From positions 1 through 45,190 of the IMG/VR virus record IMGVR_UViG_3300038551_000068: 45,190 nt of DNA. One strand, written 5' to 3'. The position numbers and the translations under genes are program-made. Origin of the DNA: a virus. Below the pieces are notes generated by a model, which saw only the letters and a list, made by a program, of their open reading frames with translations, was not told where the DNA came from and made no database searches. Shown in pieces: positions 941-43,604 of this stretch (position 1 is the first letter of the stretch; every line of letters begins with the position of its first letter).

Positions 941-3192
941 TGCCAACGATTGCCGAAATGAAGGCATCCTCACCCGCCTACGCGGCGCTGACCGATCAGG
1001 AATTCGCGGATCGCGTCTATGCCAAGCACTATGCGGGGAAGATCGATCGCGCCGAATTCAACAAGCGCGTCGGCATGGGGCCGAAAGAGACGTGGGGAGA
1101 ATACGCGCGCGGCCTCGCGCAGAAGGCAGCACAGGGTGTCACCTTCAATGTTGCCGAAGAGGTCGGAGCAGGCGCCGGTGCCGTCGGCAATCGCGTGGCG
1201 CGCGCGCTCGGCATGGACATCCCCGAGCGCACATACGACGCCATCCTGGCGGAGATGCGTGGGGACGAGCGCAAATTCGAGGCGGAACACCCGGTGCAGG
1301 CCGTTGGTGCCGAGATCGGCGGCGGGCTTCTCGCGGGCGGTCCTGCCGCGCGCGCGGTGATGGCCGCGCCAAGCCTTGCGGCTCGCGTTGGTCGTTCGGC
1401 GCTGACCGGCGCGGGCTATGGCGCCGCGTCTGGCTTCGGAGCGGGAGAGGGCGGCGCGCTGAACCGCGCGGGCGGCGCTGTCGCGGGTGGCGTTATCGGC
1501 GGCATCGCAGGGCCCATCGCCTCCGAAGTCGTGGGGCCTGCCGTCATGCGCACGGGGCAGGGCATCGCATCGGCGGCACGCTATGGGCAACAGGCCATTC
1601 GCAACGCGCGCAATCCAGAGCAAGCGGCGATTGACACCGTGGCTGACCGCATGTCGGCGGCTGGCATCGATCCGGCTGCGATCCGCGCGCAGGTCTCGCC
1701 GCCGCCAAGCGCGGCGCTCGCCAAGCGCGGCCTTACCGATGAGAACATGGCGGACATCATCAGCCGCAGCATGCAGGGCGAGGCGGCGGACGCCATCGGC
1801 CGGACATACGGCATAGGCGCCGACACCGTCCGCCGCTATGTCGCGCGCTATCGCGAGGTCAACCCCACGCCGATGAATATCGTGGACATCGCGAAGGAGA
1901 CGGCCGGGGACGGTGCGGCCGGACCAGTGACGCGCCTTGCCCGCGCGGCCTACAGCCTCGCGGGCGATGACAGCGGAACGGCGGCGCAGCGCCTTATGGG
2001 GCGGCAGGAGACGCAGGGTGGGCGCGTCGGCAACATCGTGCAGCGATCCGTCGCGGGCGGTGACTTCGAGGCCACGCGCGCCGCTGGCCTGCAAAACCTG
2101 CAAGACGAGGCGCGCACGGCGTATGCGGCCTTTCGCGCCGAGCCAGACCTTGCCACGGACCAGCTAGGCGACCTGATGGCCGATCCGCTCTTTCGCCGCG
2201 CCTCGATCCAGGCGCAGCGCAACGCCCGCGTGGATGTGATCCGCCGCAACCAGGAGGCGCGGCGCGCGGGACAGCCGCAAGAGCCCGTGCCCGATGTCGA
2301 TCCAGAGGCGCAAGTCTTCAGCCCCGACATGCTCGATCAGATCCAGCGGCAGCTTCGTATCGCCTCGGAGGGTTTCGCGAGCAATCCGAACAGCGCACGG
2401 CACGCCCGAAATCTCCGCGAGGTGTTCCTTGACCGCATCGAGGAGTACTACCCGACATTTCGCGGCATTCGCGCCAGTTACGCGCAGGGCATGGGGCAAT
2501 TCGGAGAAGAGGGCGCGCTAGAGGCTGGCGCCGCGCTCACCGCGCGCCTCGGCGCCCCTGCTCGCGAGGTCTTGCGCGGCTTCGACGCCTACACGCCCGC
2601 GCAGCAGGAGCTTTTCCGGCTGGGCTTCGCCCGCAAGTTGATGGATGACGCGGCGAACAAGCAAACCGGAGGCGCGGTCGCGAACCAGTTCGACACGCCG
2701 GCCGTCCGCGAGATCGTCGAGCGGCTCTATCCGCGCTCTAATCGCGCGCTCCATGCCCAAGGGCAACGGCTCCTCCGCGACCTGCGGCGCGAGGCGACAA
2801 CGACGCGCACGAAGAACGACATCATGGCGGGATCGCGCACGGCGGAGCTTGGCAGCGACATGGGCCGCATGATGGAAGGCGCATCGGCTGCGGCCGATGT
2901 GGCGACCGGACGGTGGAGCAAGCTGCTCGAAAACCTGTCCACGCGGCTGTCAACGCAGATCGGGCGGCGCGGCGCGGGTGAGGTTCTCGACCTGTTGACG
3001 CAAACCGATCCCGCGCAACTCCTGCCGCTCCTCAATCGCCTGGCGCAATCCGCGACGAATTCGGCGCAGCGGCGCGCCTATATGGACGCTCTTCGCGAGG
3101 CGCGGAGCATCGGCGTCCGCAGGCTAGCCAGTGTCGCGGGGCAGATGGCTGGGCGGGGCAGCGCGATCAAGGACGACACATCACCCGAATAG
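940..3192 (+). CDS. Large internal virion (DNA ejection) protein
   Basis: A 750-residue protein starting in a TGATG overlap with the gene before it. Residues 1-50 resemble the short N-terminal helix pairs common in phage internal virion proteins (MPTIAEMKASSPAYAALTDQ). Residues about 80-200 are Gly/Ala-rich with hydrophobic stretches that could insert into or cross membranes. The central and C-terminal parts are charged, helical and Arg-rich. Its place between the first ejection protein and another coiled-coil protein matches the gp7/gp20/gp16 ejection block of P22-like podoviruses. No lytic transglycosylase motif was recognised. The function is inferred from position and composition, not from a clear domain. 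Confidence 0.7.
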   Translation: MPTIAEMKASSPAYAALTDQEFADRVYAKHYAGKIDRAEFNKRVGMGPKETWGEYARGLAQKAAQGVTFNVAEEVGAGAGAVGNRVARALGMDIPERTYDAILAEMRGDERKFEAEHPVQAVGAEIGGGLLAGGPAARAVMAAPSLAARVGRSALTGAGYGAASGFGAGEGGALNRAGGAVAGGVIGGIAGPIASEVVGPAVMRTGQGIASAARYGQQAIRNARNPEQAAIDTVADRMSAAGIDPAAIRAQVSPPPSAALAKRGLTDENMADIISRSMQGEAADAIGRTYGIGADTVRRYVARYREVNPTPMNIVDIAKETAGDGAAGPVTRLARAAYSLAGDDSGTAAQRLMGRQETQGGRVGNIVQRSVAGGDFEATRAAGLQNLQDEARTAYAAFRAEPDLATDQLGDLMADPLFRRASIQAQRNARVDVIRRNQEARRAGQPQEPVPDVDPEAQVFSPDMLDQIQRQLRIASEGFASNPNSARHARNLREVFLDRIEEYYPTFRGIRASYAQGMGQFGEEGALEAGAALTARLGAPAREVLRGFDAYTPAQQELFRLGFARKLMDDAANKQTGGAVANQFDTPAVREIVERLYPRSNRALHAQGQRLLRDLRREATTTRTKNDIMAGSRTAELGSDMGRMMEGASAAADVATGRWSKLLENLSTRLSTQIGRRGAGEVLDLLTQTDPAQLLPLLNRLAQSATNSAQRRAYMDALREARSIGVRRLASVAGQMAGRGSAIKDDTSPE

Positions 3193-3306
3193 CCAGAGCA
3201 GCGCCGCGCATTGCACGGCGGCGATGATGGCGTAAATCGACAGCCCGACAGCGTCTCCGAACCTATCCGTAAGAATATCCATAAGTAAAATCTTGAGCTT
3301 AACCAT
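3181..3306 (-). CDS. Small membrane protein on the opposite strand (41 aa)
   Basis: A minus-strand ORF beginning MVKLKILLMDILTDRFGDAV and ending with one hydrophobic segment of about 20 residues (SIYAIIAAVQCAALLWLF). A GGAG ribosome binding site lies six bases before the ATG. It fills the only gap between two plus-strand virion genes and overlaps the end of the 750-residue gene by 12 bases. A single transmembrane segment and small size would suit a lysis accessory or inhibitor, but nothing shows its function. It may be a chance ORF; the good ribosome binding site and transmembrane segment argue for it. Confidence 0.4.
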   Translation of the reverse strand: MVKLKILLMDILTDRFGDAVGLSIYAIIAAVQCAALLWLFG

Positions 3307-26663: not shown

Positions 26664-27085
26664 ACAACCCAGTCCGCGAATGGATCACGAGCAACGCCGT
26701 CCGCGAATGGATCGAGCGGCGCGGCCTGACGCTGGAGCAGGCCGCGCACGCGATGCTGCTGGTTCCGCACACGCTGCGCATGAAGATGAGCGACAGCGCC
26801 TCGCGCCGGAAAACCACGCGCGATGATCTGATCATCATCTACACGCTTGATCTCATCGACGCGCTACAGGCTGGCGACACCGGCGCGGCGAACGCCGCCC
26901 GCGCGGCTCTGGTCATGGCGCGCGAGCCTGCCACGCCTCGGGAGATTTACGCGGCGGGGCTTGGCTACATCGCCGAGGGGATGGAGAGGGACAGCACATC
27001 ACGCAAGCAACGCGGCTTGGCGATGATCCGCGAGGCGCGCCTCATGCTTGACGCGGCGCAGGCGAGGGTAGTTGCGCGGGCATAG
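26660..27085 (+). CDS. Hypothetical helical protein next to recT
   Basis: A 141-residue helical protein. Residues 3-33 contain two similar segments, VREWITSNA and VREWIERRG, a short internal duplication. Residues 20-45 (GLTLEQAAHAMLLVPHTLRM) resemble a helix-turn-helix. It starts in an ATGA overlap with recT, so a link to recombination is likely. Function unknown. Confidence 0.65.
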   Translation: MNNPVREWITSNAVREWIERRGLTLEQAAHAMLLVPHTLRMKMSDSASRRKTTRDDLIIIYTLDLIDALQAGDTGAANAARAALVMAREPATPREIYAAGLGYIAEGMERDSTSRKQRGLAMIREARLMLDAAQARVVARA

Positions 27086-27098
27086 GGGATTGCCCTTA

Positions 27099-27127
27099 TT
27101 GCCGGACAGGATCGGGCGCACCATAAT
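27099..27127 (+). promoter_or_regulatory. Promoter of the 51-aa gene
   Basis: TTGCCG, 17 bases, CATAAT, without an operator in the spacer. It is followed by ATCACATCACAGCAACGGAGG, the common early leader. Confidence 0.75.
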
Positions 27128-27153
27128 CACATCACAGCAACGGAGGACTGGAC

Positions 27154-27309
27154 ATGTACGAGATTTGGATGGTGGTTGACGGAAAGCGGGTAAAGAGGGT
27201 GGAGAAGTTGGCCGCGATGGCGGACAAAGAGCGCGCCGAGCGCCGCGCGGCCTCTTGGGCCATGGCCAGCGACCCGGGGACAACATTCGAGGTCGTGGAG
27301 GTGAAATAG
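27154..27309 (+). CDS. Small charged protein (51 aa)
   Basis: A 51-residue protein: MYEIWMVVDGKRVKRVEKLA, a helix rich in Arg, Glu and Ala, then TTFEVVEVK. The beta-helix-beta order suggests a small folded protein. CAACGGAGGACTGGAC precedes the ATG. It has its own promoter. Function unknown. Confidence 0.7.
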   Translation: MYEIWMVVDGKRVKRVEKLAAMADKERAERRAASWAMASDPGTTFEVVEVK

Positions 27310-27312
27310 GTA

Positions 27313-27340
27313 TTGCCGTCACGCCAGCATGTCTCATAAT
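27313..27340 (+). promoter_or_regulatory. Promoter of the small RNA before the terminase genes
   Basis: TTGCCG, 16 bases, CATAAT, starting three bases after the stop of the 51-residue gene. The -10 box is the same as that of the RNA cassettes at 22.7-22.9 kb. Confidence 0.75.
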
Positions 27341-27345
27341 GGCGG

Positions 27346-27427
27346 CGAGGCAAGACAAGTCACCCCCACTTCTGCCTCGTTCATCGGATCAACGTCGGCA
27401 CCCCAAGCGTCGACGTTGATTTTTTTT
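27346..27427 (+). ncRNA. Structured small RNA with its own terminator
   Basis: The transcript would start near 27347 and end after eight T residues at 27427, about 80 bases. It has two hairpins. Hairpin 1 pairs CGAGGCA (27346-27352) with TGCCTCG (27373-27379) and contains an inner AAGT/ACTT stem with a C-rich loop. Hairpin 2 pairs ATCAACGTCG with CGACGTTGAT (27388-27420) and is the terminator. No ORF with a ribosome binding site fits. The layout is that of a regulatory RNA; its target is unknown. It also insulates the late promoter from early transcription. Confidence 0.65.
27388..27427 (+). terminator. Strong terminator between early and late regions
   Basis: A 10-bp perfect stem with a 13-base loop, followed by eight T residues. 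It ends both early transcription and the small RNA. Confidence 0.92.
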
Positions 27428-27455
27428 GCGCATACCCCATGGTGCCGCTTATATA
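27426..27455 (+). promoter_or_regulatory. Possible late promoter before the terminase genes
   Basis: TTGCGC (27426-27431), 17-18 bases, TTATATA (27449-27455). The -35 box begins in the T run of the terminator. It is the only promoter-like site before the whole late operon that I can see. Confidence 0.5.
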
Positions 27456-27493
27456 CAGGGCGCGCAACGTGCCGCACGACAAAGGAAAAATCC

Positions 27494-27580
27494 ATGGCCA
27501 AAAAACCGACGCCTAAGACCGAGAAAGCCCCGATGGACGGCAAGAAGGGCAAGAAGGGCGGCAAAAAACCGGGCTGCTAA
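27494..27580 (+). CDS. Very small Lys-rich peptide (28 aa)
   Basis: MAKKPTPKTEKAPMDGKKGK and eight further residues, ending in Cys; about one third Lys. AAAGGAAAAATCC precedes the ATG. It is the first ORF after the late promoter. It may bind nucleic acid, serve as a leader peptide, or be spurious. Confidence 0.45.
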   Translation: MAKKPTPKTEKAPMDGKKGKKGGKKPGC

Positions 27581-27598
27581 GGTAGGGAAGCAGAAGCA

Positions 27599-27970
27599 AT
27601 GGCAGGAAGAGGCTCCCGCCCAGGGGAGCGAAGGGGTGGGCGCAAGCCTGGAACACCCAACAAAGCGCATGCTCACGAGGCCGAATTCCGGCGCAGAGTC
27701 CTGCTCGATGCGCGCGCGGCGGGCGTGACGCCGCTTGAATTCATGCTTGCACTGATGCGGGACGAGGAAAACCCAAAGGGGATGCGCTTCGAGGCCGCGA
27801 AAGCTGCGGCGCCCTATATCCACGCGCGCCTGTCGAGCGTGCAGGTGTCCGGGGATGCGGACAAGCCAATAGAGCACAATGTTACAGTCGCGGACGCTTT
27901 CACCAGCCGAATTGCTCGCCTCGCTGCCAGAGCCGCAGAGAGCGAAGGAGATAGCGAGCCTGACGCCTGA
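27599..27970 (+). CDS. terS: Terminase small subunit-like protein
   Basis: A 123-residue protein with GGRKPGTPNKAHAHEAEFRR near the N-terminus, a common beginning of small terminase-like proteins, then a helical domain (LEFMLALMRDEENPKGMRFE, AAKAAAPYIHARLSSV). It would recognise the packaging site and feed DNA to the large subunit. It overlaps the large terminase gene by 92 bases in another frame. Confidence 0.75.
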   Translation: MAGRGSRPGERRGGRKPGTPNKAHAHEAEFRRRVLLDARAAGVTPLEFMLALMRDEENPKGMRFEAAKAAAPYIHARLSSVQVSGDADKPIEHNVTVADAFTSRIARLAARAAESEGDSEPDA

Positions 27971-30104
27971 CGCGCGGGAAACGCTGCTCTATCACTGGCC
28001 ATTTTGGGCGCGTCCAGACCAGAACGCGCCGACTGGAAAGTGGCACACATGGCTGATTCTTGCGGGCCGTGGCTGGGGAAAGACGCGCACGGCGGCCGAA
28101 TGCGTGAGGCAATGGGCATGTGGCGACACGCCATTGGCGCCTGGCCGCTACGGGCGCATCGCCATTGTTGCCGAGACGGCGGCCGATTGCCGTGACGTTG
28201 TCGTGGAGGGTGAGAGCGGATTGCTCGCGATCCATCCGGATGGTTTCCGCCCGCATTACGAGCCGTCCAAGCGCCGGCTGACATGGCCAAACGGGGTGAC
28301 GGCAACGCTCTATTCGGCGGAAGATCCTGACCAGCTACGCGGGCCGCAGCATCATGCGGCTTGGTGCTTTGTGGCCGGGACGATGGTGGCAACGCCGTGC
28401 GGGCATCGTGCGATCGAAACCCTTTGCGCCGGTGATTTGGTGTGGACCAGAAGGGGCGCGCGTCGCGTTCTTGGCAATGCGACGCGCAAGGGTGCTGTGG
28501 GCCGGATAACCTTTAGTGACGGCCAAGAATTGATAGGCACTGGGTGTCATCCGATATATCTTACATCTGGCTGGACGAGATTAGACCAGCTTCGTGTGGG
28601 GGATATTGGATGTGCAATCGCTGCATCTCCTGGGGCGGAAAGCTCTGGCATCGCTACGGCGAAGGGCGCGGCTCATATTACGAGCGCACGGACAAGAGCG
28701 TTCGCCCAAAGAAGACGCTTCGCCTGCACCGTGAGGTCTGGCTTGCTGGGCGCGGCCCGATCCCTGATGGCTGCGAAATTCACCATGTCGATGACGACAA
28801 GACGAACAATCACATCAGCAATCTGGAGTGTCTGGAGAAGGGGCAACATTCGGCAAGGCATCGAAGCGTGGCGCCGATCCCTCGATGGGATGTGGAAGCT
28901 GCCCCCTTTCATGTGCTTGCCTGCTCTGGTTGCGGGGACGAAATCAAGCGTAAGCGTCGATCAAAGCGCCCGACGTGTCCGCGCTGCGCGATACGCCGGG
29001 CTGAGCAAAAGCGCAAATCCGTTCGCCATTGCCAGCAATGCGGAGGGGAATTCAGGACGCGCGCCGGCAACTTCTGCAGTCAGCGTTGCGTCAACCTGGC
29101 AACCCGTGGCGGTACAGTCAGTGTACTGCCTGAAAGTTGACGGGGAGCCTGAATACTTCGCCAACGGCATCCTCGTCCATAACTGCGATGAAATGTGCAA
29201 GTGGCGATATGCGCAAGAGACGTGGGACATGCTGCAATTCGGGCTACGTCTTGGCGACGATCCCCGGCAGGTCATCACCACGACGCCGCGCCCTATCCCG
29301 CTCCTCAAGCAGATCATGTCCGACCCTGGCACGATCATCACGCGCGGCGTCACGACGGACAATCGCAGCAATCTGCCGGCCAAGTTCTTTTCGCAAATCG
29401 TCAGCAGGTATGCGGGCACGCGTCTAGGCAGACAGGAGCTTGACGGCGAACTGCTCGACGATGTGCCGGGCGCGCTGTGGACGCGGCGCGGCCTGGACGA
29501 GCAGCGATGGCCGCGCGGCAAGCGGCTCCCCGACATGCAGCGCATCGTGGTCGCCATTGATCCGGCTGCGGCGGACCCTGGAAAGCAGATGCCGGATGAG
29601 GGCGCGGAGACGGGCATTGTGTGCGTTGGCATGGGCGTGGATGGGCGCGGCTATGTGCTTGAGGATGGATCATGCCGGCTTGGCCCGATGGGGTGGGCAC
29701 GCCGCGCCATCGCGCTTTATGACCGCTATCAGGGCGATGCGATCATCGCGGAAATCAACCAGGGCGGCGCCATGGTCGAGGCCGTGCTCAGATCCGAGCG
29801 CCCGACCATACCGGTGATCACCGTGCACGCCTCGCGCGGCAAGGTCACGCGCGCCGAGCCTGTCGCGGCCCTTTACGAGCAGGGGCGGGTCAGCCATGTT
29901 GGCGCGCTGGCGGCCCTTGAGGATCAAATGGTTCTGTTCACGCCAAACGGCATCGAGGGCAACACGACGGCGGATCGCGTTGACGCGCTCGTATGGGCGT
30001 TGACCGAGCTTTTTCCGTCCATGGTGTTCCGCCAGCCGGTGGACGATGACGATGATGAGGCATGGATGCGAGACCGCAACCGCTCAAGGGAGACGGGCTA
30101 TTGA
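27879..30104 (+). CDS. terL: Terminase large subunit interrupted by an intein
   Basis: A 741-residue ORF: TerL ATPase-nuclease plus an in-frame intein. Extein 1 (residues 1-162) has YHWPFWARPDQ and Walker A GRGWGKT (63-69). The intein is residues 163-435. Extein 2 starts at Cys436 with CDEMCKW, whose Asp-Glu is the Walker B pair. After it come TTTPRPIPLLKQI (motif III-like), and the nuclease motifs VVAIDPAAADPG, IIAEINQGG and DRVDALVWAL. Without the intein the protein is 468 residues, the usual TerL length. The motor is inactive until splicing joins LRGPQHHAAW to CDE. The start at 27879 lies inside terS; its ribosome binding site is weak. Confidence 0.93.
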   Translation: MLQSRTLSPAELLASLPEPQRAKEIASLTPDARETLLYHWPFWARPDQNAPTGKWHTWLILAGRGWGKTRTAAECVRQWACGDTPLAPGRYGRIAIVAETAADCRDVVVEGESGLLAIHPDGFRPHYEPSKRRLTWPNGVTATLYSAEDPDQLRGPQHHAAWCFVAGTMVATPCGHRAIETLCAGDLVWTRRGARRVLGNATRKGAVGRITFSDGQELIGTGCHPIYLTSGWTRLDQLRVGDIGCAIAASPGAESSGIATAKGAAHITSARTRAFAQRRRFACTVRSGLLGAARSLMAAKFTMSMTTRRTITSAIWSVWRRGNIRQGIEAWRRSLDGMWKLPPFMCLPALVAGTKSSVSVDQSARRVRAARYAGLSKSANPFAIASNAEGNSGRAPATSAVSVASTWQPVAVQSVYCLKVDGEPEYFANGILVHNCDEMCKWRYAQETWDMLQFGLRLGDDPRQVITTTPRPIPLLKQIMSDPGTIITRGVTTDNRSNLPAKFFSQIVSRYAGTRLGRQELDGELLDDVPGALWTRRGLDEQRWPRGKRLPDMQRIVVAIDPAAADPGKQMPDEGAETGIVCVGMGVDGRGYVLEDGSCRLGPMGWARRAIALYDRYQGDAIIAEINQGGAMVEAVLRSERPTIPVITVHASRGKVTRAEPVAALYEQGRVSHVGALAALEDQMVLFTPNGIEGNTTADRVDALVWALTELFPSMVFRQPVDDDDDEAWMRDRNRSRETGY
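28365..29183 (+). other. Intein in the terminase large subunit (Walker B site)
   Basis: A 273-residue intein in frame with TerL. Block A: CFVAGTMVATPCGHRAIETL, CAGDLVW, with Cys1. Block B: IGTGCHPIYLTSGWTRLDQL, with the conserved T-x-x-H. Block F/G: VYCLKVDGEPEYFANGILVH and the terminal His-Asn, followed by Cys+1 of the extein. These are the residues of a class 1 intein. The middle (about residues 249-405 of the ORF) reads as basic low-information sequence in this frame and has no endonuclease motif. That stretch is the shadow of the HNH gene in another frame. Confidence 0.93.
28610..29140 (+). CDS. HNH homing endonuclease nested in the intein in another frame
   Basis: A 176-residue HNH endonuclease on the same strand as terL but shifted in frame (the offset from the terL start is 2 modulo 3). 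The ATG at 28610 has GGGGGA six bases upstream. The HNH core reads LHREVWLAGRGPIPDGCEIH, HVDDDKTNNHISNLECL, then GQHSARH. The C-terminus has two zinc-binding modules (CSGCGDEIK ... CPRC and CQQCGGEF ... FCSQRC). It fills exactly the space between the two halves of the splicing domain and ends just inside block F. It probably cuts intein-free terL genes and spreads the element. Normally such domains are in frame with the intein. Confidence 0.88.
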   Translation: MCNRCISWGGKLWHRYGEGRGSYYERTDKSVRPKKTLRLHREVWLAGRGPIPDGCEIHHVDDDKTNNHISNLECLEKGQHSARHRSVAPIPRWDVEAAPFHVLACSGCGDEIKRKRRSKRPTCPRCAIRRAEQKRKSVRHCQQCGGEFRTRAGNFCSQRCVNLATRGGTVSVLPES

Positions 30105-30106
30105 GC

Positions 30107-32224
30107 ATGACCTATGAGGCCGGCGGCGACATGCCGGCCGAAGAGCCCCTATCCGCCTCCGCGCTCGATATGCTGGAGATGGCCGCGCAGTCGCCAAACA
30201 TCGCGAGTGACATTGACGCGGATCTGCGAAGCCAGATCGCCGCGCGCGTCATAGACCAATACACACTCGACCGATCCTCCCGCGCGACATGGGAGGAAGA
30301 GGCGCGCTTGGCGATGGACGCTGTCCTTCAGCGATCCGAGGCGAAGAACTACCCTTTCGAGGGCGCGAGTAACGTCAAATTCCCGGTGCTGACATCGGCC
30401 GTGCTGCAATTTGGCGCACGCACCTATCCCGCGCTGGTTCCAGGAGACCGCGTGGCGAAAGTCAAGGTGATCGGCAGCGATCCCTACGGCCTGAAACAGG
30501 CGCGCGCGGAGCGGCTGGGGTCGCACATGTCCTGGCAACTCCTAAAGGACATGCCGTGGTGGGAACAGGACGTTGACGTGCTCGTCCACCAACTGCCCGG
30601 CATGGGGCACGCCTTCAAAAAGGTCTATTACGATCACGCGTCCGGGCGGCCGTGCTCACATCTCGTCAGCGCCATGAACGTGGTGGTGCACCAGAGCACA
30701 CGCGATCTGGAGAGCGTGCCGCGCATTACCCAGGTCATTGACGATCTGTACCCACACCAGATTGACGAGCGTATCCGCGCGGGTACGTTCCTGGAATTCG
30801 CCTATGGCCAAGCGAGCCCCGGCGCTTCGGAATTCGGTGCCCATGAAACCCCATCGGACGAGGATGCGCCGCACATTTTCCTTGAGCAGCATCGCTATGA
30901 GGATCTGGACGGCGACGGGCTTCGCGAGCCGTGGATTGTCACGGTTCACAAGGATAGCGCGACCGTCGTTCGCATCGTGTCCGGCCACGACCTCGACCGC
31001 GCGATCATCCGTGATGACGGGACTATCGTCAGGCTGCCGCGCAAGGCTTATTTCGTTGGCTACCCCTTCCTCCCCGACCCCCTCGGCGGCTATTACGGCA
31101 TTGGATTTGGGCGGCTCCTGCGTCCCATTGGCGAGGCGGTGAACACATCACTCAACCAGATCATCGACGCCGCGCACCTGCAGAATGCCGGCGGCGGCTT
31201 CATCGGCAGCGGGCTGAACACGAAGAAATCCACGATCCGCGTGGAGATGAACAAATGGACCAATGTCAGCGCGCCCGGCAAGACGATCCGCGAGGCCATC
31301 GTCCCACATAGCTTTGCGGGCCCGTCGCCTGTGCTCTTCAATGTTCTCGGCATGCTGCTGGACGCCGCGAAGGGTATCGCCAGCGTGCAGGACGTGATGA
31401 CGGGGGACGCCAAGGCCCAAACGATGCAGCCAACAACCCTTCTCGCGCTGATTGAGCAGGGCATGAAGGTCTATACCAGCATCGTGAAACGGATTTTCCG
31501 TTCGCAGTCGCAGGAATTCGCGTTGCTCTATGCCATGAACCGGGAATTTCCGGACGAGGACGCCTACGCCCGTGTCATTGACTGGGAGGCGCCGCAGGCC
31601 ATTGTCGCGCTGATGACGCAATACCAGCAGGCTGTCGCCGAGGCGCAAGCGCAGGGCGCCGAGCCGCCGACGCCACCCCCGCCGCAGATGCTTGAGCACC
31701 TGCGGCGCCCGACGATGGTAGGGGACTATGAGGACGAGAACTGCGATGTCGTCCCGGTCGCCGATCCCAGCACCGTCACCGACATGCAGCGCATGGCCAA
31801 GGCGCAACTCGTCCGCGAACTGGCGACCGAGGGGCAGGACGTCATAGACCGTGGCGCGGCCTATCGGCGCGTGCTCATGGCGGCCGGCATCGAGGACGCG
31901 GATGGCTTGATGAAGCAGCAGGCCGAGCCAGATCCGCTAATTGTGGAAGGCGCGAAGGCTGAAATTGAGCGCAAGCGGGCGGGTGCCATGAAGGATCTCG
32001 CGCTTGCCGACAAGGCCGCGATGGAAACAGAGGGCAGCAAACAGGCCATCGCCATGGAACACGCGCGGATCGCCAGCGGCGCCATGGACGACGACGCCGC
32101 GCTGGAGAGCGAAAGCAAGCGCATGGCCGCGAATAAGACGCGGCTGGAGATGCAGCTTAGCCAAAGACAGCAGGAGCAGGCGGAGCGCGAAGCGGAGGCC
32201 TATGCCACGGGAGAAGCTGGATGA
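30107..32224 (+). CDS. Portal protein
   Basis: A 705-residue protein. The core carries features of podovirus portals: EEARLAMDAVLQRSEAKNYP, FEGASNVKFPVLTSAVLQF, DMPWWEQDVDVLVHQLPGMG, GYYGIGFGRLLRPIGEAVNT, SLNQIIDAAHLQNAGGGFIG, then MTGDAKAQTMQPTTLLALIE. The C-terminal 150 residues are a long charged helix typical of P22-like barrel extensions. It would form the dodecameric vertex for DNA passage. ATG at 30107 is chosen; TTG at 30101 sits better after AAGGGAG. Confidence 0.9.
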   Translation: MTYEAGGDMPAEEPLSASALDMLEMAAQSPNIASDIDADLRSQIAARVIDQYTLDRSSRATWEEEARLAMDAVLQRSEAKNYPFEGASNVKFPVLTSAVLQFGARTYPALVPGDRVAKVKVIGSDPYGLKQARAERLGSHMSWQLLKDMPWWEQDVDVLVHQLPGMGHAFKKVYYDHASGRPCSHLVSAMNVVVHQSTRDLESVPRITQVIDDLYPHQIDERIRAGTFLEFAYGQASPGASEFGAHETPSDEDAPHIFLEQHRYEDLDGDGLREPWIVTVHKDSATVVRIVSGHDLDRAIIRDDGTIVRLPRKAYFVGYPFLPDPLGGYYGIGFGRLLRPIGEAVNTSLNQIIDAAHLQNAGGGFIGSGLNTKKSTIRVEMNKWTNVSAPGKTIREAIVPHSFAGPSPVLFNVLGMLLDAAKGIASVQDVMTGDAKAQTMQPTTLLALIEQGMKVYTSIVKRIFRSQSQEFALLYAMNREFPDEDAYARVIDWEAPQAIVALMTQYQQAVAEAQAQGAEPPTPPPPQMLEHLRRPTMVGDYEDENCDVVPVADPSTVTDMQRMAKAQLVRELATEGQDVIDRGAAYRRVLMAAGIEDADGLMKQQAEPDPLIVEGAKAEIERKRAGAMKDLALADKAAMETEGSKQAIAMEHARIASGAMDDDAALESESKRMAANKTRLEMQLSQRQQEQAEREAEAYATGEAG

Positions 32225-40171: not shown

Positions 40172-41616
40172 TGCCCACAATCCCGCTCGCGCTCCCCACC
40201 GCATCGACGCTTGGCCGCGACGGTCAGGACGCGGCGGCGCGCCTTATCAACGGTTACCCGGAGATGCACGGCGCCGATGGTAAGACGCAATTCACGATCT
40301 ATGGAGCGCCTGGCCTGACGCGGTGGGACCAAAACAGCTATCCCGCCAGCGAGCGCGGGCTGTTCGCGCGGGCGGATGGCGAATTGCTCGCCATCCTCGG
40401 CGGCAGCATCGTGTCTTTCGACGTCAACGGCCTGGGATCGACGCTGACGAGTATCGCGGGGGCTGATCGCTGCATCCTCGCGGGCAATCTCGCGGACCCA
40501 ATCCAGGTTGCCATCGTGCGCCCTAATGTCTCCTGGTACGTCCTGACCGGAAGCGCGCTATCCGAGGCTCCCGACAGCGATCTGCCCACGCCAAACTCGT
40601 GCGATTACCTGCGCGGTCGCACGCTTTACGGCATCGATGACGGGCGCGTCTATTGCTCTGACACCGACGACGCCGCGAGCGTATCGGCGCATGCTTTCGA
40701 CATCGCCAACTCATCGTCTGACGGCCTCGTCCGCGTGTTTGCCAATGCCGGATTCGCCTACCTGTTCGGCAAGCGGACGCTGGAGATATGGCAGCCTGAC
40801 CCATCGCTTGCCGGACAACCCTTCCCCTTCTCGCCAGTGCAGCAGGATATTGATCTTGGGCTCATGGCCCGGCATTCGGTCGCGCGCTTTGAAAAGGCGC
40901 TGATGTGGGTGGACCACAAGGGGATCGTGCGCTATGGCCGCGATGGTGGTGCCGAGCGGGTGTCAAGCCATGCGGTGGAGCGCTCGATTGAAGCGCTAAG
41001 CGCGGCGGATCGCGCCGCGATGATCGGCAGCATCCATTCGTTTCACGGGCACGAAACATTTACGCTCAAGGGGGCCAATTTCACATGGTGCCTGGATCTG
41101 CCGCTCGCGCGGCAGGCGGGTTTCAGCAAGGCGTGGTACGAGCGGCAATCCTATGGCCTGGACCGCTGGCGCGTGAACAGCGCGATCGAATTCGCGGGCG
41201 GCTACATCCTCGGCGCCGAGGACTCTGGCGAGCTATACCGCCTCAATCCGTCATCCTATGACGAGGACGGCGAAGCGCATGTTCTCGAAGTGCGCTGCCC
41301 TCACTCGCATCGGTTCCCCGATGGCATGCTGGTGGATGCTGTGCAGATCGACGTGGTGACGGGAGTTGGCCTTGGCGCTGGAGATGATAGCGACACCGCG
41401 CCGGCGATCATGGTGGATTTCAGCGACGACGGCGGGAAGACGTTTCGCGGCGAGCGTGTGGCCAGCATTGGTGGGCAAGGGCAGTTCTCGACCACGGTCA
41501 GGCTCAATCGCTGGGGGCGCTGCACGGAAAAGGGCCGCGTCTGGCGGATACGCGCCAGCGCCAAGACGCTCAAGGCGATCAACGGCGTGTCTCTGGAGGC
41601 GAGGCGGGCTGGATGA
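40171..41616 (+). CDS. Packaged-DNA stabilisation/tail protein (P22 gp10-like)
   Basis: A 481-residue protein. RLINGYPEMHGADGKTQFTI and YGAPGLTRW near the N-terminus, NSCDYLRGRTLYGIDDGRVY, FAYLFGKRTLEIWQPD and VARFEKALMWVDHKGIVRYG match P22 gp10-type proteins that form a beta-propeller tail hub. With the gp4-like protein it locks the DNA in the capsid. ATG at 40171 is set by the overlap with the previous stop. Confidence 0.88.
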   Translation: MPTIPLALPTASTLGRDGQDAAARLINGYPEMHGADGKTQFTIYGAPGLTRWDQNSYPASERGLFARADGELLAILGGSIVSFDVNGLGSTLTSIAGADRCILAGNLADPIQVAIVRPNVSWYVLTGSALSEAPDSDLPTPNSCDYLRGRTLYGIDDGRVYCSDTDDAASVSAHAFDIANSSSDGLVRVFANAGFAYLFGKRTLEIWQPDPSLAGQPFPFSPVQQDIDLGLMARHSVARFEKALMWVDHKGIVRYGRDGGAERVSSHAVERSIEALSAADRAAMIGSIHSFHGHETFTLKGANFTWCLDLPLARQAGFSKAWYERQSYGLDRWRVNSAIEFAGGYILGAEDSGELYRLNPSSYDEDGEAHVLEVRCPHSHRFPDGMLVDAVQIDVVTGVGLGAGDDSDTAPAIMVDFSDDGGKTFRGERVASIGGQGQFSTTVRLNRWGRCTEKGRVWRIRASAKTLKAINGVSLEARRAG

Positions 41617-43604
41617 CGCTTGTCACGATCCCTGACAAGAGCCTGCCGCTTGCCGATCCCAAGACGGGACGCATCAGCCTGGAATGGTATTCCACTCTGC
41701 AAAGCCTGGCCCGCATCGCCAACAAAGTGCCCTCCCGGCCCGGCCTGCGGCAACTCCTCGTCCCCACATCGGATCTGCCGCTTGTCGATAGCGAGACGGG
41801 CCGCATAACACTGGAATGGTATCGGCTGTTCAATGCGACCGTGCGTGCGGCCGACGATGTGGACGCAAACGACATCGAAAGCATCATCCGCGCGGTGACG
41901 CTCATTCCCGGATCAACGGAGTTCGGTTACCACACGAGCGAGGTCCGCGTAGACGGCGGCGCCGGCTCGACCTACACCGAGAACAGGCACACCTACAGCC
42001 ACGCCAGCGACTACATGATGTCCATGGACGAGCTTGCGGCAGCCCTGCCCGAATGCGAGACCGTTTCGCTGTTCGTGTCGTGGTTCGGCACGGACCTGCG
42101 GTGTGGCTCGTGCGAGATCAAGCCGCGCGTGGACACGTCCACCAAGGCCACGACGCCGATATCATGGGGCGTGGCGGGGCTGACGCGCGCGACGGCGGAG
42201 ACCGTGACGACGGTGGGTTTCCGGCCGGCCTATGGCGGAACGCCAAGTGATCAGACCATCATCGCCTGTATTCAGGACATCAAGGCGCGCGGCTATGGCG
42301 TCATCTACACGCCCTTCATCGTGATGGACATCGAGCAGGGCAACGCGCTGCCCGATCCCTATACCGGCGCGACCGGACAGCCGGCCTATCCCTGGCGCGG
42401 TCGCATCACCTGCGATCCGGCGCCGGGGGTTATGGGCTCGCCAGACGAGACGGCAACAGCGGGCGCGCAGGTGGACGCCTTTTACGGCACGGTGACGGCG
42501 GCTGATTTTAGCGTTTCGCCCGGATCGGTGAGCTATTCCGGCCCGGCTGAATGGAGCTATTCCCGCTGCATCCTCTATCAGGCGGCTCTATGCGCGGCGG
42601 CTGGCGGCGTGGACATCTTCATGATCGGCTCGGAAATGCGCGGGCTGACATGGGTGCGCGACAGTGCGAGCACATATCCATTCGTGGCGCACCTCAAGAC
42701 GCTGGCGGCAGAGGTCAGCGCGCTCCTGCCGTCCGCGCAGATCAGCTATGCGGCGGACTGGTCCGAATTCTTCGGGCACCAGCCGGCCGATGGCTCGGGC
42801 GATGTTTATTTCCATCTCGACCCGCTGTGGTCGGACAGCAACATTGACGCGGTGAGCATCGACAATTACTGGCCGCTGTCGGACTGGCGCGACGGCTCCA
42901 CGCATCTTGACGCGTTGGCGGGGTATGAAAGCCCGTCCGATCTGGCCTATCTGCGGTCGCAGATGCAGGGCGGGGAAGGATACGACTATTTTTATGCCTC
43001 AGATGCTGACCGGACAGCGCAAGTGCGAACGGACATTTTCGACGGGACATACGGGGAACATTGGGTTTTTCGTTTCAAGGACGTGAAGGGCTGGTGGGAA
43101 AACGAGCATCACGACAGGCCCGGCGGCGTGCGCAGCGGATCGCCGACGGCGTGGGTTCCGGAGAGTAAGCCGATATGGTTTTCCGAGATCGGTTGCGGCG
43201 CGGTTGATAGGGGATCGAACCAGCCCAACGTCTTCCTTGATCCCAAGTCCTCGGAGAGCTTCTCGCCATACTTTTCCAGCGGCGCGCGCGACGACATCCA
43301 GCAGCGCCGGCACCTGCGCGCCTTTATCACATGGTGGGACGAGACGTCAGCCGACTTCGTGGAGGACCAGAATCCGCAATCGTCGGTCTATTCGGGCCGC
43401 ATGGTCGATACGTCACGCATCATGGTCTACACATGGGACGCCCGTCCCTATCCGCAATTCCCGAACTTCCGAACGGTCTGGTCGGACGCCGACAATTACG
43501 AAACCGGGCAATGGCTTAATGGTCGGGCCTCGCCAAACGCGATGGAGCCATTCATATTCGCAGCATCGCAATATGGTGACATTGACCCTGATGGAGTGCT
43601 GTAA
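41613..43604 (+). CDS. GTA-type TIM-barrel tail protein
   Basis: A 663-residue protein. Residues about 8-35 and 53-78 are two copies of a short motif (GRISLEWYSTLQSL and GRITLEWYRLFNAT). From residue 150 on it matches the TIM-barrel-like domain of the gene transfer agent tail protein: YTPFIVMDIEQGNALPDPYT, AYPWRGRITCDPAPGVMGSP, DIFMIGSEMRGLTWVRDS, IDAVSIDNYWPLSDWRDG, PIWFSEIGCGAVDRGSNQPN. Glu residues in IGSEM and FSEIGC are in place for a glycosidase-like centre. It may cut cell-surface glycans during entry. In GTAs this domain is part of a longer siphovirus-type protein. Confidence 0.85.
   Translation: MTLVTIPDKSLPLADPKTGRISLEWYSTLQSLARIANKVPSRPGLRQLLVPTSDLPLVDSETGRITLEWYRLFNATVRAADDVDANDIESIIRAVTLIPGSTEFGYHTSEVRVDGGAGSTYTENRHTYSHASDYMMSMDELAAALPECETVSLFVSWFGTDLRCGSCEIKPRVDTSTKATTPISWGVAGLTRATAETVTTVGFRPAYGGTPSDQTIIACIQDIKARGYGVIYTPFIVMDIEQGNALPDPYTGATGQPAYPWRGRITCDPAPGVMGSPDETATAGAQVDAFYGTVTAADFSVSPGSVSYSGPAEWSYSRCILYQAALCAAAGGVDIFMIGSEMRGLTWVRDSASTYPFVAHLKTLAAEVSALLPSAQISYAADWSEFFGHQPADGSGDVYFHLDPLWSDSNIDAVSIDNYWPLSDWRDGSTHLDALAGYESPSDLAYLRSQMQGGEGYDYFYASDADRTAQVRTDIFDGTYGEHWVFRFKDVKGWWENEHHDRPGGVRSGSPTAWVPESKPIWFSEIGCGAVDRGSNQPNVFLDPKSSESFSPYFSSGARDDIQQRRHLRAFITWWDETSADFVEDQNPQSSVYSGRMVDTSRIMVYTWDARPYPQFPNFRTVWSDADNYETGQWLNGRASPNAMEPFIFAASQYGDIDPDGVL

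Follow-up and report, generated by a model that had tools for sequence, protein, structure and literature searches.

A phage terminase intein that carries a complete HNH endonuclease gene overprinted in another reading frame

The large terminase gene (terL) of the phage in IMG/VR record IMGVR_UViG_3300038551_000068 (the window, the whole stretch of 45,190 nucleotides that was analyzed) is interrupted by an intein, and a complete HNH endonuclease gene lies over the linker of that intein in a different frame. We consider it very probable that this is a mobile TerL intein whose homing endonuclease is the overprinted gene, translated separately from the precursor. An earlier sequence-only reading had proposed this nested layout, and its coordinates for terL, the intein and the HNH gene prove exact to the base. 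In the following sections, we describe the two reading frames, the selection acting on each of them, and their distribution among relatives.

Anatomy of the intein and of the nested gene

The terL precursor is encoded by a 741-aa open reading frame (27,879–30,104, on the plus strand like all features below) that reads through exteins and intein without a stop, also across the HNH gene. A domain search of this frame matched Terminase_6N (E 1.8e-26) and Terminase_6C (E 2.7e-15) around the intein, together with a Hint/intein domain (Hint_2, E 3.7e-9; Intein_splicing, E 7.5e-6). The N-extein (27,879–28,364, 162 aa) comprises the ATPase with its Walker A motif and ends ...QHHAAW, directly before the CDE of Walker B; the uninterrupted TerLs L020–L023 read AAW-(A/L)DELAKW at this position. 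The intein (28,365–29,183, 273 aa) extends from C1 to H272 and N273: it opens CFVAGT, carries TxxH at residues 59–62 and closes ILVHN, after which the C of the Walker B CDE occupies position +1, placing the insertion point within Walker B at W|CDE. The C-extein (29,184–30,104), delimited by the open frame and the Terminase_6C match, contains the remainder of the ATPase from CDE onward and the RNase H-like nuclease. Subtracting the 273 residues of the intein from the 741 of the precursor gives a TerL of 468 residues.

The two splicing halves flank a segment of quite different character. The N-terminal half (28,365–28,618, approximately residues 1–85) carries blocks A and B with C1, T59 and H62 in invariant columns and is predicted at a pLDDT of ~90, while the C-terminal half (29,073–29,183), with blocks F/G and ending ...EPEYFANGILVHN, is identified by TIGR01443 (above its cut-off), by conserved columns and by the AlphaFold model. 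An alignment of 16 relatives shows C1, F2, T59, H62, H272 and N273 to be invariant. The AlphaFold model of the intein frame has two confident segments, residues 1–85 and 236–273, which together match the gp41-1 intein in Foldseek (TM 0.85 on the target), and a low-confidence region, residues 88–231, over the HNH gene. That region (28,625–29,057) is an open shadow linker, free of amino-acid constraint and predicted to be disordered (pLDDT mostly <50). The insert thus displays C1 with block A, the TxxH of block B, a C-terminal HN followed by C at +1, and a Hint fold, as expected of an intein, which the sequence-only reading had recognized from blocks A/B, F/G and the adjoining CDE.

The nested gene (28,610–29,140, 176 aa, ATG to TGA) occupies a frame different from that of terL, such that the first base of each intein codon falls on HNH codon position 2. 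The open frame itself spans 28,544–29,140, and the ATG at 28,610 is the conserved start. It is preceded by a Shine-Dalgarno-like GGGGGA (28,598–28,603) composed of the intein codons V-G-D, and a purine-rich site is found here in 16 of 16 family-1 relatives. The product matches HNH_3 (E 1.9e-14) and PHROG HNH families (3e-21); the HNH_3 motif and zinc knuckle mark it as an HNH/zinc-finger endonuclease, so that the full gene with zinc fingers, ATG and GGGGGA described earlier is borne out. H58, H59, H80 and the CxxC pairs are invariant in the HNH alignment, and N67 and N71 are conserved at ≥90%. Its AlphaFold model is confident (mean pLDDT 88.7), and the best PDB match in Foldseek, a weak one (E 7e-3), is the homing endonuclease I-HmuI. 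The final ~20 HNH codons overlie the conserved C-terminal half of the intein; within this dual-coding zone (29,079–29,140), the HNH tail (GNFCSQRCVNLAT...) and the intein segment SVASTWQP...VYCLKV are each conserved in their own alignment, so ~60 bases encode two conserved proteins together.

A group I intron with HNH was also considered as the container of this gene; no Rfam match was obtained in 27,000–31,000 at E values up to 1, and an RNA intron around the HNH gene was rejected on this basis. Out-of-frame HNHs can reside in phage genes by another route, since the authors of the ShiLan domain found no intein or intron splicing domain around such genes and suggest that the inserted segment remains part of the protein (PMC11855218, 2025). 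By analogy, the TerL insert might never be spliced, with the HNH gene riding in TerL and the shadow peptide retained. We regard this as very improbable: a full splicing domain is present here, its catalytic blocks are complete and invariant at both ends, the predicted structure has the Hint fold, and since Walker B is split by the insert, its retention should kill the ATPase.

According to the mobile-intein explanation, the 741-aa precursor would be read straight through, and the Hint halves (residues 1–85 and 236–273) would fold around a disordered linker of ~150 residues, after which the intein would excise itself to yield the 468-aa TerL. The same mRNA would be initiated inside the intein, at the ATG at 28,610, to produce a separate 176-aa HNH protein; the targets of this protein would be terL alleles lacking the intein, cut at Walker B, and their repair would copy intein and nuclease jointly into the cut allele. 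Nesting out of frame would follow from the entry of a whole gene, whose stop codon would truncate TerL if inserted in frame; the other frames hide it.

Two selection regimes and the start of the nuclease

To evaluate the open intein frame, we used 83 contiguous nested loci (16 family-1 and 67 family-2; GC 28–70%), keeping the HNH protein of each fixed and redrawing synonymous codons from TerL codon usage. The intein frame contains no stop over the HNH gene in any of the 83 loci, and the third frame contains stops in all of them. The chance of an open frame is P ~0.34 in the GC-rich studied phage, so this copy alone does not prove dual coding, and it falls below 0.001 in several single AT-rich loci. 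The product of the per-locus values over the 83 loci is ~1e-162, which is not a true joint probability since the loci are related. As a control, 22 HNH relatives located outside a contiguous intein ORF have 115 stops in the corresponding frame versus 109.3 expected. The contrast between nested and control loci, which is independent of the combined P, indicates that the frame is kept open only where the intein must be read through. Base composition alone could therefore account for the open frame of the studied phage (P 0.34) but is rejected for the family. Resampling further revealed that, given the HNH protein sequence, the frame in use is far easier to keep open than the other out-of-frame option.

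Substitution rates separate the two frames on the same DNA. In the core, dN/dS is 0.12–0.40 in the HNH frame versus 0.9–1.4 in the intein frame, and the N-block of the intein has values of 0.19–0.32 in the intein frame. Protein-level selection therefore switches frame within the element, with two regimes on the same DNA, and the description of the terL frame over the HNH gene as shadow sequence holds. These ratios also bear on the idea that the HNH frame is a decaying fossil whose translation has been lost, leaving only the intein to matter. Mini-inteins with HNH remnants do exist, as such decay would give; however, the low HNH-frame ratios extend across divergent pairs and reflect purifying selection, the catalytic and zinc residues are invariant, and the studied copy is intact. 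We give the fossil reading a very small probability, slightly below that of an unspliced insertion.

The position of upstream stops is informative about how an active HNH gene is expressed. Upstream of the HNH start, the same frame soon meets a stop that still lies within the intein (80 of 82 loci; median distance 16.5 nt), and the nuclease consequently needs its own start. A Shine-Dalgarno match of ≥4 nt is seen ahead of 55% of HNH starts versus 15% of the internal ATGs of the same TerL genes, although the start in the studied phage has only GGGGGA and not the canonical GGAGG. Because the frames overlap in one transcript, it is formally possible that programmed ribosomal frameshifting joins the N-half of the intein to the HNH protein, with no independent initiation of the nuclease. 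The nearby stop would confine such a shift to a very short stretch or push it beyond the start, the Shine-Dalgarno enrichment is at odds with it, and a fusion of N-half and HNH would also lose the C-half; its likelihood appears about as low as that of a retained, ShiLan-like insert. Upstream stops and Shine-Dalgarno enrichment thus favor initiation of the HNH protein at its own start, a view drawn from sequence features.

Relatives, mobility and origin

A search of viral contigs with the HNH protein returned 16 further family-1 copies, full or partial, and wherever the copy is full, it is nested in an intein of TerL with the identical shift of frame, and TerL itself stays open. A scan of genome contigs with the family-1 HNH gave no confirmed relative, and a DNA-level search of cultured phages detected similarity in the exteins only. 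The family-1 inteins are located at Walker B, mostly at W|CDE, and inteins at this motif constitute a single clade. In L007, L013, L014 and L016 (intein starts 4717, 366, 1822 and 4705), the insertion lies 2–4 residues upstream of W|CDE but has not left Walker B, and position +1 is C or S in each case; the insertion site apparently slides.

When deposited phages and plasmids were queried by tblastn, members of the HNH superfamily emerged hidden in the TerL genes of Tetrasphaera phage TJE1, Acinetobacter phage Highwayman, Rhodobacteraceae phage LS06-2018-MD07 and a Halobacterium plasmid. The insertion in these four loci is at another TerL site, close to DH|CDALRY, a motif of the nuclease domain, and the nuclease is unannotated in the three phage records. 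The family-1 and family-2 HNHs are homologous (hhalign probability 99.9, E 1.3e-31). A family-2 profile search matched >534 loci; the best 80 of these and the four deposited loci together include 67 contiguous nested inteins, all with an identical frame offset. The plasmid locus (Halobacterium sp. GSL-19 plasmid pGSL19_54.9, 795–3155) has the nested layout in a TerL-like gene adjoined by a portal gene and is probably a plasmid-like provirus. Streptomyces plasmid pS1D4-14.2 (1557–3923) is annotated with an HNH gene and a truncated terminase and not with the full nested-intein TerL ORF.

So that loci would not be picked by their nuclease, we also searched with the N-half of the intein only and obtained 79 complete inteins out of at least 496 relatives. 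A full HNH in the shifted frame was found in 66 of them, and the other 13 are mini-inteins, seven with an HNH remnant and six without a match; since mini-inteins lacking HNH exist, the splicing domain can persist alone. No HNH occupies the intein frame or the third frame in any of the 79, and neither the HNH searches nor the splicing-domain search found an in-frame HNH homologue. In the studied intein and in all full-length relatives, the HNH is out of frame, at odds with the in-frame endonuclease of a canonical intein. Combined, the HNH-based and splicing-domain sets contain at least 119 distinct nested nucleases at 95% identity, or 98 at 60%, and the majority of the scanned host proteins match terminase families.

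This recurrence addresses the concern that assembly or sequencing indels have displaced an HNH that is truly fused in frame, as in ordinary inteins. The studied DNA is a metagenomic virus record, which would allow for such errors, but the identical offset occurs in dozens of independent assemblies and in isolate genomes and plasmids (TJE1, Highwayman, LS06-2018-MD07, and the Halobacterium and Streptomyces plasmids), and at each of these loci both the start and the stop of the HNH gene fall within the intein. The artifact was rejected, and we assign it a negligible probability; the sequence-only reading had named paired frameshift errors and an in-frame fusion of the same HNH as the observations that would speak against it, and neither was encountered.

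Other arrangements were observed in the same genes. L009 (2557–3348) and L011 have a second intein in TerL, of 264 aa, after AALYEQ; it contains a different HNH (2805–3302) in the same shifted frame, giving two nested inteins in one gene. In L018, L153, L156 and L160, a LAGLIDADG-type intein lies upstream (at Walker A in L018, by eye; with a Pfam endonuclease match in L153, L156 and L160, those of L156 and L160 being canonical LAGLIDADG inteins), and the Walker B intein is only a mini-intein without full HNH. No upstream LAGLIDADG-type intein accompanies a full nested intein in the scanned set; perhaps one active nuclease carries both inteins in these four loci. Elsewhere in the window, the protein encoded at 41,613–43,604 contains a GTA TIM-barrel-like domain (E 4.9e-142), which is familiar from alphaproteobacterial gene transfer agents.

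Comparison of inteins with their exteins shows that intein and HNH move together between distant TerLs. The studied intein is 62–67% identical to those of L001, L002 and L004, in TerLs whose exteins are only 31–32% identical, and its closest extein (L005, 59%) surrounds an intein of 53% identity. Rank correlation is 0.74 between intein and HNH distances and 0.24 between extein and intein distances. The intein-free TerLs L020–L023 (69–78% identical) have A or L at +1 in place of C, and the residues flanking the intein thus do not coincide exactly with these empty sites. This distribution across TerLs and empty alleles would fit joint homing of intein and nuclease.

Free-standing HNH relatives lie beside terL in Lactobacillus phage CL2, Exiguobacterium phage EauM-23, Sphaerotilus phage SN1 and Salmonella phage Shemara. 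Because such relatives adjoin intein-free terL genes, they are a plausible source of the nested nuclease, and the earlier proposal that a free-standing HNH gene entered a mini-intein is plausible with respect to this source and, putatively, to the direction; the entry is old and not local to the studied phage. In L090, L099, L111, L112, L121 and L129 (Vibrio phage 1.245.O), two ORFs, separated by the HNH, encode the intein halves; the five metagenomic loci among them (all but L129) have close to the neutral number of stops in the intein frame. These six are candidate naturally split TerL inteins, which may plausibly descend from nested ones.

Relation to known elements and implications

Canonical mobile inteins (e.g. 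LAGLIDADG inteins such as PI-SceI) include the endonuclease as an in-frame portion of their own polypeptide. The TerL intein resembles them in its Hint domain, the endonuclease between blocks B and F, the conserved active-site insertion point and its apparent mobility, but its nuclease is a separate overlapping gene. It also resembles gp41-1-type and other split inteins, with a splicing domain nearest to gp41-1 and an endonuclease that is a gene of its own between IntN and IntC. The "fractured genes" of Dassa and co-workers (2009) reportedly consist of split inteins in which a free-standing endonuclease gene separates the two halves, and the six candidate split loci look exactly like this; in contrast, the studied intein and most relatives are one continuous chain, with both halves in the single ORF 27,879–30,104 and the nuclease overprinted rather than set between two ORFs. 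The I-HmuI-like HNH_3 enzymes and the free-standing phage HNHs beside terL share the HNH_3 motif and zinc knuckles and are homologous, yet they are ordinary non-overlapping genes or intron ORFs.

The closest parallel to the overprinting is the ShiLan domain, likewise a complete HNH/zinc-finger gene in another frame of an essential-looking phage gene, with a stop-free host frame, a patchy distribution suggesting homing, and I-HmuI as the best fold match. The TerL HNH differs in lying within a complete intein, in >100 loci and at two main TerL sites. Out-of-frame HNHs without a splicing domain and split inteins with free-standing nucleases are thus already known. We found no report in the open-access literature of an intein with an out-of-frame nuclease; a 2025 preprint on phage inteins, with "Non-Canonical Architecture" in its title, may overlap.

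The layout recurs in >100 phage genomes and so represents a conserved, little-described design for a selfish element. It seems somewhat probable, at lower confidence than our reading of the studied element, that these loci constitute a widespread, unrecognized class of phage TerL mobile inteins in which the nuclease is always a complete overprinted gene in one fixed alternative frame, the intein frame is selected only for openness, and loss of openness can produce split inteins. Such elements also expose an annotation problem, as deposited records miss either the nuclease or the TerL precursor. They furnish a large natural set of dual-coding sequences, with one frame constrained as protein and the other only stop-free, that is useful for studies of overprinting, and they suggest a concrete route linking free-standing HNHs beside terL, contiguous nested inteins, mini-inteins and split inteins. 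An endonuclease gene that overlaps the intein and is translated on its own would give mobile inteins an additional means of carrying the enzyme, and would uncouple splicing from DNA cutting at the protein level.
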